From a virus: a DNA stretch of 64,000 nt. The notes below the pieces were generated by a model that did no database searches, had not been told where the DNA came from, and worked only from the letters and a program-made list of their open reading frames with translations. The translations under genes were made by a program, and so were the position numbers. How positions within the stretch are numbered: the first letter of the stretch is position 1; each line of letters opens with the position of its first letter. The DNA is taken from IMG/VR virus record IMGVR_UViG_3300025133_000052, positions 1 through 64,000 of that record; one strand, written 5' to 3'. Shown in pieces: positions 23,999-32,318 of this stretch.

Positions 23999-25171
23999 TT
24001 AAATTAACCAAGTTAGGTCTTCATCACCTCCTTTAGTCTTCATACTCCATCCAGATTCCTTTCGTGTACTACCTGGTGTGTACGCTCCTTGGTACTTTCC
24101 GAAATGTCCAAGTGTTCGTTTATTTAGTTCAATACCCTCTTGTCTTAGTCTCAATGCTGTGTCTCTGACCCACAGAGCGATTGAAAAGCTCATTACTAGG
24201 TCATCGTGATATCCTACCTGTGCTTCTGGTCTGTTTCCTTTCCACACAAATACGTACAGTTCATCTAGTAGTCGCTTTGATTTAATTATTGGTGTTTTTT
24301 CTCTCATCATAGTATCAAGCTTAGATATAATGAGTGGTCGTGTTCTCGATGTTGTTGAAAACCCTGGTACCATTTGTGATTTATCTTTTAGATCGTAACC
24401 TTTACTTAACTGTGACTGTACATCTACTACTGATAAATCTTTAGCTGTGTAAAATAAGTTACTGTAGTCCCTATCTATCGCGGGTTGGATGGCCGCCCAT
24501 CCCACGTTAGAGTTCTCTATAACTAATAGTGCGTCGTTATATTCTGTAGCTGCGTTAACTAACATATTTCCGTAATCCTTGGTACCAATTTTTCCCTTAT
24601 ATTCTGCTACTTGTGTTAGACTTTCTACATCTATGATATGGAATGCAGAATAGTCACCTCCGTCTCCTCGCGCTACATCAGCTACTACAATATAATTTTT
24701 TGTGTAATCAGCTGGTTCCCATATCCAGTAATTACCGTCAAATCCTCTCTTTTCAATTGGATCACAACAATATGTCTCTTCGTACCATTTTAATATAGCT
24801 CCCTCTACAACTGAGTGACCGGATGTGATGAAATCGCAGTTATGTGATACAATACCATCTACATTAAATATATTGCCATTTTCAACCTGAACTACATCAT
24901 ATAACTTTATATTGTTCTTTATACGTTCGATTGATTTAATTAAAATATCTTGATTATTGGTTGAGTCTAATTTACATCCAATATATAATTCATTTGGATG
25001 TATTTTTATACCGTCCAACATAAATGGATGATCGTCAGAGCATTTTATTAGTGTACCGTTACTTAATGTAATGACCACGTGACTGGGTTTTTCCAATTTA
25101 CGAATACCATGGAATTTTTGGAACCCACTTGGTGTTAATATTTCATATTTACTATTAACTTTCAACTCCAT
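23999..25171 (-). CDS. 17: Terminase large subunit C-terminal half, fused to C-terminal split intein
   Basis: This is the second half of a split gp17. The first 111 residues are the C-terminal part of an intein, ending in ENGNIFNVDGIVSHN; splicing would occur before the cysteine of CDFITSGHSVVEG. The 279-residue C-extein is the terminase nuclease: YIVVADVARGDGGDYSAFHI supplies the first acidic cluster, ALLVIENSNVGWAAIQ the second, and GYHDDLVMSFSIALW the third, as in T4 gp17. I use ATG 25171 as the start, one base after the stop of the preceding homing endonuclease; an in-frame GTG at 25180 would add three residues and overlap that gene. Joined to the upstream half the mature terminase would be about 525 residues. 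Confidence 0.9.
   Translation of the reverse strand: MELKVNSKYEILTPSGFQKFHGIRKLEKPSHVVITLSNGTLIKCSDDHPFMLDGIKIHPNELYIGCKLDSTNNQDILIKSIERIKNNIKLYDVVQVENGNIFNVDGIVSHNCDFITSGHSVVEGAILKWYEETYCCDPIEKRGFDGNYWIWEPADYTKNYIVVADVARGDGGDYSAFHIIDVESLTQVAEYKGKIGTKDYGNMLVNAATEYNDALLVIENSNVGWAAIQPAIDRDYSNLFYTAKDLSVVDVQSQLSKGYDLKDKSQMVPGFSTTSRTRPLIISKLDTMMREKTPIIKSKRLLDELYVFVWKGNRPEAQVGYHDDLVMSFSIALWVRDTALRLRQEGIELNKRTLGHFGKYQGAYTPGSTRKESGWSMKTKGGDEDLTWLI
24839..25171 (-). other. C-terminal split-intein fragment (IntC) in terminase
   Basis: The fragment carries the block B-like SDDHPF histidine, normally in the N-terminal part of an intein, then block F (LYDVVQVENGNIFNVDGI) and block G (VSHN followed by cysteine). 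That distribution means the split lies very early, between blocks A and B, as in the atypical AceL-TerL class of terminase split inteins. Confidence 0.85.
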
Positions 25172-25172
25172 A

Positions 25173-25904
25173 TCACACACTAATTCTTATGAATTTACAA
25201 TTTAAAAAATCCTCTATTTCTTTTTGTCTTTGAATATCTCTATCCTTTAGCGTACCGTCAACGTTGTAATGATGTTTTTCATCTATTTCTAGCACAGTAT
25301 TTTTTTCATGGTCATATGCATCTACAAAATACCCAAGTACTTGATATTCTCCATTATTTTCTGCATGTTGAAAATTATACCCGTGTTTTTTCTCATACTG
25401 CTTTATGATTGGGATTGAAGATTTATTGTATCTAGGAACGCACGCCCCTTTTGCGCTTTTAATATACTCCAAAGTACTTTGTCGCATTTTTAGTTTAGTT
25501 TCCTGGGTATGTGGTTTACCTAGTTGGTTTCGTTTATAATCTGGACAATGTCTACAATATTTAGTAAAATTATATTTTCTACCACATGAACATTTCAATT
25601 TTTCTATATCCCCATTATATTGAACTATAAACAGAATCCTATATCTAAAACTATATTGACCTTTATATGAATTTTGATTCTTTATTGTTTTTTCTAATAT
25701 ACTTGAATGTTTATATATTGATTTATATAATCTTGGATTTTCCTTTATTATTGTTCTATTTTTAGCTTTACCAAATAAAATTTTATAATAATTATCCAAT
25801 TGCAATATCTGCTTAGTTTCATTAAACGTATATAGATCATTTATTTGATCTAATTTTTCTTGGATTTTAATATACCCCTGTTTAACATAATTACAATCTT
25901 CCAT
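25173..25904 (-). CDS. Homing endonuclease between the terminase halves (Vsr-like, EDxHD type)
   Basis: The 243-residue gene sits between the two terminase fragments, overlapping the first by 14 bases and ending two bases before the second. Residues 105-125 hold a zinc-ribbon-like CSCGRKYNFTKYCRHC, followed by GKPHTQETKLKMRQS, a NUMOD3-like DNA-binding repeat. The C-terminal 70 residues match the Vsr-like fold of the EDxHD homing endonucleases: NFQHAENNGEYQVLGYFVDA, then VLEIDEKHHYNVDG with the catalytic E-x-D-E-x-H-H, and DIQRQKEIEDFLNCKFIRI at the end. Such enzymes were described in fractured genes together with split inteins. It probably cuts intein-less terminase genes and spreads the insertion. 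It may also be non-mobile now; the sequence shows no break. Confidence 0.85.
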   Translation of the reverse strand: MEDCNYVKQGYIKIQEKLDQINDLYTFNETKQILQLDNYYKILFGKAKNRTIIKENPRLYKSIYKHSSILEKTIKNQNSYKGQYSFRYRILFIVQYNGDIEKLKCSCGRKYNFTKYCRHCPDYKRNQLGKPHTQETKLKMRQSTLEYIKSAKGACVPRYNKSSIPIIKQYEKKHGYNFQHAENNGEYQVLGYFVDAYDHEKNTVLEIDEKHHYNVDGTLKDRDIQRQKEIEDFLNCKFIRISV

Positions 25905-26721
25905 ACAAATCCTCTAAATTAATATCTTTAATTTTCCCAGTAACAATATCTCGGATAGTGACAAATGCATCACCCCACAGACAATCACACTCCTGAGCTG
26001 CGAATTTAGGTCCCAGTAACTCATCTTGCTTATCCCTCCATTCTTGATCTCTTTCTGGATGTAATGACCAGTGAAGTTTGATTGGGTTGAATTGCCCTCC
26101 GGCCATTGCATCGGTCCAGGATTTGTGAAAAAAGTTACCTACACCGTTTGGTGTTGAAAGTATAATGGCCTTACCACCCGTCGCTAATGTTTGTTGAGAT
26201 GAAGCCCATATCTCTTCGATTCTATCTACAAAAGCAGCCTCATCTATTATAAGTAATGAAAGTGCTTCTGAACGGCCTGCATCTCCTCCGGATGATATCG
26301 CCTTGATTTGTGAACCATTTGCAAATCTTAATGATAATTTATTATCTTCAACTGACTTACCCTTTAACCAGCTAGGTAAATTGTCGTGCATAACCCTTAC
26401 CTTTGTTACAAGATTTTTAGCTACTTCCTGTTTTGTTGCTATTACAAGTATATTTTTATCTTCCCCAAACACCATTGTCCATAACGAATACCCAGCTGAT
26501 AGTGTTGATATCCCTAATTGTCTAGATTTTAATATTATATTATAATCGTGGTGCTTCAAAGCGTCTAGGGTTTTTTCCTGGAAATCGTATAGATTAAAAT
26601 TAATTTTTCCTTTTGTTGGATGTTGAATCATACAGTACTTGCGCATAAAGTACACAGGGTCCTTTGCACACTTACGAAATTCATCTTTAATTATATCTTT
26701 TATTGATTTACTAGTGGCCAT
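25891..26721 (-). CDS. 17: Terminase large subunit N-terminal half, fused to N-terminal split intein
   Basis: The 276-residue protein consists of a 246-residue N-extein and a 30-residue intein start. The N-extein is the gp17 packaging ATPase: MRKYCMIQHPTKGKINFNLY adenine-binding region, Walker A KSRQLGISTLSAGYS, Walker B SLLIIDEAAFVD and the coupling motif ILSTPNGVGNFFHKSW. After AAQECD the intein begins with cysteine 247 and ends at a stop after 30 residues (C-L-W-G-D-A-F at the start, KIKDINLEDLYGRL at the end). The short block A fragment followed by a stop is what an atypically split intein predicts. The gene begins one base after the stop of the preceding gene. It must be joined to the downstream half to package DNA. 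Confidence 0.92.
   Translation of the reverse strand: MATSKSIKDIIKDEFRKCAKDPVYFMRKYCMIQHPTKGKINFNLYDFQEKTLDALKHHDYNIILKSRQLGISTLSAGYSLWTMVFGEDKNILVIATKQEVAKNLVTKVRVMHDNLPSWLKGKSVEDNKLSLRFANGSQIKAISSGGDAGRSEALSLLIIDEAAFVDRIEEIWASSQQTLATGGKAIILSTPNGVGNFFHKSWTDAMAGGQFNPIKLHWSLHPERDQEWRDKQDELLGPKFAAQECDCLWGDAFVTIRDIVTGKIKDINLEDLYGRL
25894..25983 (-). other. N-terminal split-intein fragment (IntN) in terminase
   Basis: Thirty codons starting with TGT at 25981-25983 and ending before TAA 25891-25893. The pattern CxxGD-x-V-GKIK-x-EDLYxRL matches the short IntN of AceL-TerL-like inteins as I remember it, with a few inserted residues. The extein junction would become AQECD-CDFITSG, which fits uninterrupted terminases. 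Confidence 0.83.
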
Positions 26722-29540: not shown

Positions 29541-32318
29541 CTACCAAAGGGCATTAATTATTTGATTGACTGGTCCGAATATACCTGTTATCTTATATGT
29601 TTTACCGTTATATATTATAACAATACCCTCAGTTGGTACTATATTTTTGAATCCTCCGGCCTGTTGAACCTTTTGTAAGTTATCTTTAACTTTCTTTAAT
29701 TTACTTAAATCCCCACCTTTTCTGACAGCTGATATTGATGACGCTATTTTTTTTCTAATGTTTTGTACAGACTTTGCTGGATTGGCTGCTAGTAGGTTTT
29801 CTGCATTTTTTAAAATATCTGCTCCTAATTCAAACATAAGTGTTTCGAATGGTAACATATTCTTTTTAACTTGAGCGGTTACTTTTATTTTATCTTCTTT
29901 TTTGATCTTATCTAACAGGTCTTTGTCTGAAATATTTGTACCATTTAATCTAAAAGATTTATCCCCAAAAGCCCATCGCTTAACCAATCCCATTTTGATT
30001 GTGTTATCGATACCTTTAAATTTATTATCAATATAGTTTTCCCACCACGCTTGATGATATTCGGCTAATGTTGATGTATCTTTTAGATTAAATTGTTTTT
30101 GTAATTTGTTTAGTTTTGATAGATATATCGATTTCCTCGCTGCAAAATCAAGATGTGGTTTCATCTTTATAATTTGTGGTGGAATTATTTTGAATGTTTT
30201 TTGTATGTTTTGATTTACTTGAGTTATCATACCAGTCAACATTCTCCCACTATCAGGAACTGCCCCGATTGGAGTAGCCGTCTTTAAATCATATTCTATA
30301 GCTCCATGAAATTGTAATCGGGCTACATCATAACTAATTATATTTTCTGATGCTGGGTAGATTATTTCTAAATTCATAAATGCACTACCTCCTTTAAAGA
30401 TCTTTTCTTTTTGAGCATCTGATAATGATGATACTGCTTTTTCGAGATCTTGCATAGAATACACGAAGGCTTTTTCGATATCACCTCTACCAGCAAATTT
30501 AGATTTCATTTGTTTGATATCCATGGGCTTCTTAATGGTGGATTTATTACGTGCTGCTTTTAACTTACCATCCTTCCACGTAACCATTAAATTTTGACCA
30601 TCCGTTTTTTCGCTTGCAGCTTCATCTACATCCAATCTTCCCTGTAATCCTAAATCAATTAGATTTTTAAAATCTCCGAAAGTCATGCCCTTATCATCAA
30701 ATGGATGGCTCATATGCCCGTATGCTCCTCCCTCAGTAATTAATCCTTCCTTAATACCTTCTTGTTTTGCAAAAGGGTTATTACCTTGACCGTAAGAAAC
30801 AAAAAATAATCTTTGCTTGCCTACTTTTTTAGAAACAACCTTCCCCTCTCTTCCCGATTTCTCAAGTTCTTTAGTTGCATTATCATGTTTTAAATAAAAA
30901 TTTCTTTTTTGCTTCATAAGTGAAGCTTTTTTACTTTTCTTAGGTTTTTTCTTTTTTTTAGCTTCGTCGAATATATTTGATTTAGGTAGTACTCTCATTC
31001 TCATAGCAGATTTGCCATTGATTAATAGATCTCCTTTTTCATTCCAACCTATTGTCTTTACAACCACTTTTTTATTTTTAAACTTTCCCATTAAAACAGT
31101 GTCACCAATATTAACTGGGATTGTTATATCTTCCATTATTCCAGACCACCATTCTTTAGTTAAGACCTGTTCGTTTACTTTTGTGTCTGGTAGTTCAACT
31201 TCAGTATCTTTTTTACGTTGCTTATCAACAAGTTTCGTAACTTTTTTTAATTCTCTATCTAGCTTATTAGGTTCTTTTTTACTTGTTACGGCAGATGATT
31301 CTGCTCCCATGAAACTAACAAATTCGTATCCTAACCTTAGAGCTACTTGAGATATACGCTTAACATATTTTTTCCAGGCTCGAGTACCTTTAATATCGTC
31401 ACGATTGATCGGGGTAGTAACTCCTGCTTGACCTGCAGGAAAATATGTTACTGAGTGTACTTCTCTATCTGATATAGAGTCGAATTCGACAGCACCATCT
31501 AGTATATAGTCAACAACATCCCATCCCATTTGTTTTGCGTAAAAATCACCAGTTTTCGAGTACCCCTTGAATGTAGTAAATTGCAGGGCGGGCCCGTCAT
31601 CAACTAATTGTTTTGCTGGGGATCCAGTGTTACTACTTTCATTTAAAATATTAGGTATGTCTATGGTAGATATAAAGGATTGCATTATCTCATTGATAGC
31701 TAATAACTTATCAGTTATCAACTTATAATTCTTAGTGTGACCGAATATACCACTAAAGAGCTTCTTTCGTGTCTTATCGTCAATCCCTTGATCTCCTAGT
31801 GCCTTCCTGATTTTAGTACCACTCATTTCACCGTAACCTGGTACTTTGAGAGACTTGTGCTTTGCAGTATATACGTACGCTCCTTCCCTGTACCCAACTT
31901 CTACTGGATCTCCTTTCTTCCATTTTTTAAAATGCTTACCACCTGATAATCTATCTGCGTCTTTTTTACCTAACATAAATACAGCTGCAGTTGTTTCAGG
32001 ATCAAATTTAGAGAGTAACTCCTGTGCCTTGTAAGGACTGTTTACTTTAATAACATTTTTAATCCCGTGAGATTTAATTATTTTTGCTTTTTCTTGATAT
32101 GAAAACGGAGATTTAGGCATTTCAACTTTATCTGATGTTGCTACCCATACTTCATCAAATCCTAATTTTTTTAATTCATCGTAAGTTTGTGCGTGGTGCT
32201 TACCCATAGGTTGGAACCTACCCGGGTAAATACCAATTACCTTTTTGATACCGTTTTCTTTCTTAACAGTACCTTCTGTAACTATTTGCTTTACTATCCA
32301 ATCTCCTATAGTGTTCAT
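29541..32318 (-). CDS. Two-headed nucleotidyltransferase: HIGH-type plus ligase-like domain
   Basis: A 925-residue multidomain protein. Residues 25-180 are a HIGH-type nucleotidyltransferase (NMNAT/cytidylyltransferase fold): IGIYPGRFQPMGKHH at 28-42 replaces the usual HxGH, and MSGTKIRKAL at 165-174 is the ISSTxxR equivalent. Residues 400-450 look like a small SH3-like unit (NIGDTVLMGKFKNKKVVVKT). From about 525 onward is a ligase-like domain: motif I ASEKTDGQN with lysine 571, a motif III-like FMNLEIIYP near 647-655, and motif IV/V-like TEGIVIIYNG and YKITGIFG near the C-terminus. Lysine 571 would be the adenylylated residue of a polynucleotide ligase. A predicted role in NAD or RNA/DNA end metabolism follows; the true substrate is unknown. 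The promoter motif almost touches the ATG, suggesting a very short leader. Confidence 0.75.
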   Translation of the reverse strand: MNTIGDWIVKQIVTEGTVKKENGIKKVIGIYPGRFQPMGKHHAQTYDELKKLGFDEVWVATSDKVEMPKSPFSYQEKAKIIKSHGIKNVIKVNSPYKAQELLSKFDPETTAAVFMLGKKDADRLSGGKHFKKWKKGDPVEVGYREGAYVYTAKHKSLKVPGYGEMSGTKIRKALGDQGIDDKTRKKLFSGIFGHTKNYKLITDKLLAINEIMQSFISTIDIPNILNESSNTGSPAKQLVDDGPALQFTTFKGYSKTGDFYAKQMGWDVVDYILDGAVEFDSISDREVHSVTYFPAGQAGVTTPINRDDIKGTRAWKKYVKRISQVALRLGYEFVSFMGAESSAVTSKKEPNKLDRELKKVTKLVDKQRKKDTEVELPDTKVNEQVLTKEWWSGIMEDITIPVNIGDTVLMGKFKNKKVVVKTIGWNEKGDLLINGKSAMRMRVLPKSNIFDEAKKKKKPKKSKKASLMKQKRNFYLKHDNATKELEKSGREGKVVSKKVGKQRLFFVSYGQGNNPFAKQEGIKEGLITEGGAYGHMSHPFDDKGMTFGDFKNLIDLGLQGRLDVDEAASEKTDGQNLMVTWKDGKLKAARNKSTIKKPMDIKQMKSKFAGRGDIEKAFVYSMQDLEKAVSSLSDAQKEKIFKGGSAFMNLEIIYPASENIISYDVARLQFHGAIEYDLKTATPIGAVPDSGRMLTGMITQVNQNIQKTFKIIPPQIIKMKPHLDFAARKSIYLSKLNKLQKQFNLKDTSTLAEYHQAWWENYIDNKFKGIDNTIKMGLVKRWAFGDKSFRLNGTNISDKDLLDKIKKEDKIKVTAQVKKNMLPFETLMFELGADILKNAENLLAANPAKSVQNIRKKIASSISAVRKGGDLSKLKKVKDNLQKVQQAGGFKNIVPTEGIVIIYNGKTYKITGIFGPVNQIINALW

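Follow-up and report, generated by a model that had tools for sequence, protein, structure and literature searches.

The 64,000-nucleotide stretch of viral DNA analysed here (the window; positions 1 to 64,000 of IMG/VR virus record IMGVR_UViG_3300025133_000052) carries a gene for a T4-type terminase large subunit (TerL) that is broken in two by a split intein, with a putative homing endonuclease gene residing in the break. The arrangement comprises three open reading frames (ORFs) on the minus strand. The first (25891-26721) encodes the N-terminal, ATPase half of TerL, whose 246 amino acids (25984-26721) match Pfam Terminase_6N (E=3.5e-9), the PHROG terminase large subunit (E=3.9e-45) and, at 66%, TerL of Microcystis phage Mel-JY01. 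This half continues directly into an N-terminal intein fragment (IntN) of 30 amino acids, Cys1 to Leu30 (CLWGDAFVTIRDIVTGKIKDINLEDLYGRL; 25894-25983), which is followed by a stop codon at 25891-25893. The second ORF (25173-25904) encodes the nuclease of 243 amino acids and starts at an ATG that precedes the IntN stop, with an overlap of 14 nucleotides. The third (23999-25171) encodes the C-terminal intein fragment (IntC; 24839-25171), which extends for 111 amino acids from the ATG at 25171 to a terminal SHN, and then the C-terminal, nuclease half of TerL (23999-24838, including the stop codon), 279 amino acids that begin with the Cys+1 residue of CDFITSGHS and match PHROG terminase (E=1.2e-15) and, at 53%, the Mel-JY01 protein.

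The whole insert measures 1,145 nucleotides (24839-25983) and is coding over its entire length. The IntC ATG lies 1 nucleotide past the nuclease stop (TGATATG) and lines up with the IntC starts of relatives. As listed, the third ORF begins at a GTG (25180), and the fragment lengths of 30, 243 and 111 given by the first-pass annotation, together with its ORF coordinates and its junction at CDFITSGHS, are all exact, provided that the 111 is counted from the ATG rather than from the GTG. A Shine-Dalgarno-type motif accompanies 8 of 40 genes here, and arguments from such motifs are therefore weak.

Removal of the insert joins QECD to CDFITSGHS, as in uninterrupted TerL loci. The two terminase halves are contiguous, with a gap of 0, at exactly the same codon boundary (most commonly QECD/CDF) in 131 related IMG/VR loci, a count that includes duplicates, and thus the reconstructed extein aligns to intact terminases without a gap, as the first-pass annotation had anticipated. 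The arrangement is not an assembly artefact, because it recurs on two further IMG/VR contigs that carry 2 and 4 differences in 8,828 base pairs (one of these being I10T in IntN), and in a more distant locus, L004, with identities of 64% (nuclease) and 63% (IntC).

Several lines of evidence identify the inserted fragments as parts of one intein. IntC matches CatC, from an engineered consensus atypical split intein (PDB 6DSL), with E=1.2e-15, and IntN aligns with CatN from the same structure over its length, with an E value (0.72) that is not significant at 30 amino acids. Residues C1, W3, G4, V8, I21, L26 and Y27 of IntN are invariant among 13 relatives, as are C44-S45-x-x-H48 (block B), D92 and S109-H110-N111 of IntC across relatives, such that all residues of class-1 splicing are present (C1, block B S45-x-x-H48, H110, N111 and Cys+1). 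A natural single-chain form is found in the related locus L170 (2911-3339), where IntN is followed without interruption by the Met at which IntC begins in split forms, and the window IntC begins at residue 31 of this fused protein. A model of the L170 intein (predicted local distance difference test score, pLDDT, 77; predicted template modelling score, pTM, 0.62), built from an alignment that included the window IntC, is most similar among PDB folds to Cat and then to VidaL, both atypically split inteins. The HINT (intein) fold expected on assembly of the fragments is therefore predicted by way of this fused relative. NCBIfam and Pfam intein models did not recognize the fragments at model cut-offs, and a scan of genome contigs confirmed no cellular homologues of the C-intein.

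The locus is a ‘fractured gene’ that contains a naturally split intein of the AceL/GOS/Cat-TerL type, and assignment to the AceL-TerL class by the first-pass annotation is borne out by the CatC match, the conserved splicing residues, the fragment lengths and the L170 fold. Dassa et al. (2009) reportedly described the ‘fractured gene’ class as split inteins with an intervening homing endonuclease. The window resembles AceL-TerL (25+104 amino acids), GOS-TerL (37+115) and Cat (30+104) in its insertion in TerL, its short IntN, an IntC within the range of 104-115, its Cys+1 and its split at S2, the position past the first helix that is used by AceL-TerL and GOS-TerL (PMC11766414, PMC13014065). It has Cys1 like AceL and Cat, whereas GOS-TerL has Ser1, and it differs from all three in its diverged sequence and in its natural setting, where a full-length nuclease ORF occupies the break. 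Because both the position and the lengths fit published atypical TerL inteins, whose natural IntN fragments range from 15 to 37 amino acids (PMC13014065, PMC11766414), the split is early but normal for its class, and its description in the first-pass annotation as unusually early does not hold. VidaL (PDB 6vgv) shares an atypical early split, but its IntN has only 16 amino acids and its split position is S1 (PMC13014065). A parallel in organization is AceL-NrdHF, a published and probably phage-borne fractured gene: there too, the gene of a conserved phage enzyme is interrupted by a split intein, and a free-standing endonuclease ORF lies between the parts. However, the AceL-NrdHF intein is divided at the usual position (98+48 amino acids) and is accompanied by a GIY-YIG nuclease (PMC7891396), whereas the window intein is split at 30 amino acids and carries a nuclease of the EDxHD type.

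The nested nuclease is helical in its N-terminal part and has its catalytic domain at the C-terminus; it also contains a CxC...CxxC motif. Across 25 relatives, E186, D195, E206, H212 and D223 are invariant and D208 is nearly so; these residues were matched by eye to the named EDxHD motif. The protein model (pLDDT 87) matches, as its best nuclease hit, the catalytic domain of the characterized EDxHD homing endonuclease I-Bth0305I (PDB 3r3p) with a Foldseek probability of 1.00 and E=0.024, and matches Vsr more weakly (1vsr and 1cw0, probability 0.63). Relatives of the nuclease additionally match Pfam MTES_1575/DUF559. The earlier proposal of an intact, Vsr-like EDxHD endonuclease agrees with the conserved residues, the fold match and the full length of the ORF. 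I-Bth0305I, which has been placed among the endonucleases of group I introns (PMC3943268), shares the fold and motif type of the catalytic domain, but is only 13% identical in the fold alignment, and the window ORF differs in residing within a split intein. A homologous catalytic domain in LR756508.1 belongs to a free-standing ORF whose N-terminus appears helix-turn-helix-like by eye. In the related locus L236 (2088-3011, 4470-6329), the ORF in the TerL break is 37% identical to residues 1-125 of the window nuclease and does not share its catalytic end, which suggests domain swapping from comparison of the sequences. The L236 phage also has an intein-like insertion in its portal gene.

All parts of the cassette are under purifying selection in relatives. 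Ratios of nonsynonymous to synonymous substitution (dN/dS) for IntN, the nuclease and IntC are mostly 0.03-0.3 in close pairs with measurable dS, although in two pairs no dS could be obtained for the very short IntN. The inserted and empty states require 7 changes on a tree of 137 TerL sequences, and at least 5 of these changes are forced by strongly supported branches. In this tree, the empty TerL of L010 (83% identity) is the sister of the window TerL, and hence gain or loss of the cassette was recent; the window intein and nuclease instead group with those of L004 and L182. Extein data reject a clade of the window, L010 and L004 in an approximately unbiased (AU) test (p about 1e-9). A first extein test, which joined the window and L004 without L010, was set aside, as the sister position of L010 forces its rejection. 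Conversely, the extein grouping is not rejected by the intein data (AU p=0.095 and 0.27), and the case for horizontal transfer is therefore carried by the extein-side test and a step in sequence identity. This step is seen between L253 and L269, whose inserts are 97% identical within TerL flanks of 81-89%, with a dS of 0.12 in the insert versus about 1 in the flanking TerL, which is the pattern expected for a cassette that moves as a unit. The patchy occurrence of the insert, the conflict in the extein tree and the steps in identity are consistent with mobility into intein-free alleles; the intein-tree tests are non-significant.

These observations of anatomy, residues, homology, junction, selection and phylogenetic conflict make it highly likely that the locus holds a mobile, S2-split TerL intein with a free-standing EDxHD homing endonuclease gene in its break, located in the terminase of a T4-like phage, and the window element is probably a working intein. 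The two terminase-intein genes and the nuclease gene, whose ORFs overlap or abut, would be read in a single run, after which IntN would dock on IntC. Cys1 and Cys+1 would then perform class-1 splicing, with Asn cyclization at SHN, and the ligated TerL (QECD-CDFITSGHS) would package DNA. In a mixed infection, terL alleles that lack the intein would be the expected substrate of the nuclease, and recombination would then copy the entire 1.1-kb cassette into them. Several points weigh on the other side. We infer splicing activity, the nuclease target and its cleavage, homing and translational coupling from these data. Single-sequence and profile searches of the PDB gave no credible nuclease match, so that the fold search alone was informative, and its E value for I-Bth0305I is 0.024. 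To these are added the non-significant intein-tree tests and the extent of the phage genome: the window belongs to a linear virus record of 93,284 base pairs (G000) that is probably incomplete. The undamaged second terminase that the first-pass annotation had said would count against it was not found in this 93-kb record, and a second terL could lie elsewhere because the genome is incomplete.

The states of the element in related phages bear on alternative explanations. Among 67 distinct inserted alleles, 46 carry a nuclease ORF of 220 or more amino acids, in 11 the ORF is partial or interrupted, and in 10 the ORF search gave none; some ‘partial’ calls may reflect the choice of start codon, and at least one of the ‘none’ alleles, L239, has a nuclease of another family. 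Such common decay would suit an intein that splices beside a nuclease that has lost its homing activity, with the cassette now inherited vertically in the window phage. We consider this improbable, since the window nuclease is full length and retains the conserved residues of its family, the nuclease genes of relatives have a low dN/dS, and the closest TerL is empty, so that gain or loss was recent.

Comparison of near-identical phage pairs reveals that the intein remains split after nuclease loss. In the nuclease-plus/minus pair L214/L213, 766 nucleotides are deleted from the nuclease, the 454 shared insert bases are identical and the flanks are about 98% identical, while 782-nucleotide deletions separate the pairs L220/L067 and L174/L073. 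In L067 and L073, the IntC ATG occupies the 14-nucleotide overlap that is held by the nuclease start in the window, a takeover that fits translational coupling. L170 and L233 (2890-3321) have single-chain mini-inteins at this TerL position, and the Met at the L170 join suggests that this intein was re-fused rather than never split. These alleles speak against a terminase gene that is simply broken, with the halves acting as separate subunits without protein splicing in the manner of the genes-in-pieces ribonucleotide reductase of the T4 group. The latter is a nuclease-split phage enzyme that functions as two peptides (cited in PMC10448857), and the ATPase and nuclease of TerL are separate domains. 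Nevertheless, even divergent alleles share invariant intein residues, and these are under purifying selection, both intein parts are kept where the nuclease is gone, and an in-frame single-chain intein, as in L170 and L233, would disrupt TerL unless spliced; a broken gene is accordingly a very unlikely explanation. The idea that the break is instead an RNA-spliced element, such as a group I intron, can be dismissed almost entirely, despite the terL introns with nearby homing endonucleases known from phages such as ICP1 (PMC10448857), since no Rfam family and hence no conserved intron RNA is matched anywhere in the window, intein residues stand at both junctions, and the insert is coding end to end.

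Beyond the split intein with its EDxHD nuclease, early breaks of this type in related phages hold other arrangements. L287 and L303 have the N-terminal TerL-IntN protein fused with the nuclease. TerL is in three pieces, divided by two atypical split inteins, in L221, L222 (67-4170), L224 and L226, where a TnsA-like ORF lies in the first break and an EDxHD ORF in the second. It is also in three pieces in L234 (797-4200), where the first IntN is fused in frame to an HNH/NUMOD3 ORF. L239 (526-3906) carries a GIY-YIG ORF in the early break and a long insertion near the Walker A motif that is apparently a contiguous intein. We give even odds to the broader proposal that the early (S2-type) TerL-intein break is a general landing place for nucleases (EDxHD, GIY-YIG in L239, HNH in L234 and TnsA-like in L222), with some terminases cut in three and the intein staying split after nuclease loss or existing as one chain. 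If this is true, a cycle of gain, decay and refusion can be read from natural alleles.

The surroundings of the terminase are T4-like, with the portal gene gp20 beside terL and genes for the major capsid protein gp23, tail sheath and baseplate. The nearest named phages with uninterrupted terminases are Microcystis phage Mel-JY01 (66% and 53% for the N and C halves), which has a single gene of 1,599 nucleotides, and the Flavobacterium phages vB_FspM_immuto (57% and 50%). Elsewhere in the window, a protein of 925 amino acids (29541-32318, minus strand) has an N-terminal cytidylyltransferase-like domain and a remainder without a Pfam match at E<=0.001, in which the stretch SEKTDGQNLMVTWKDGKLKAARN appears RNA-ligase-like by eye.

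The window is a new case of an already known arrangement, and the family-wide series of states goes beyond one added case. Atypical split inteins with short N-fragments are valued for protein labelling, and few natural ones have been characterized. The window supplies such an intein in its genomic setting, together with a full-length nuclease, and leads to the collection of inserted alleles described above. The nuclease-plus/minus pairs and single-chain forms make the origin and persistence of split inteins directly testable, and the relatives appear to capture the spread, nuclease loss and re-fusion of such elements.
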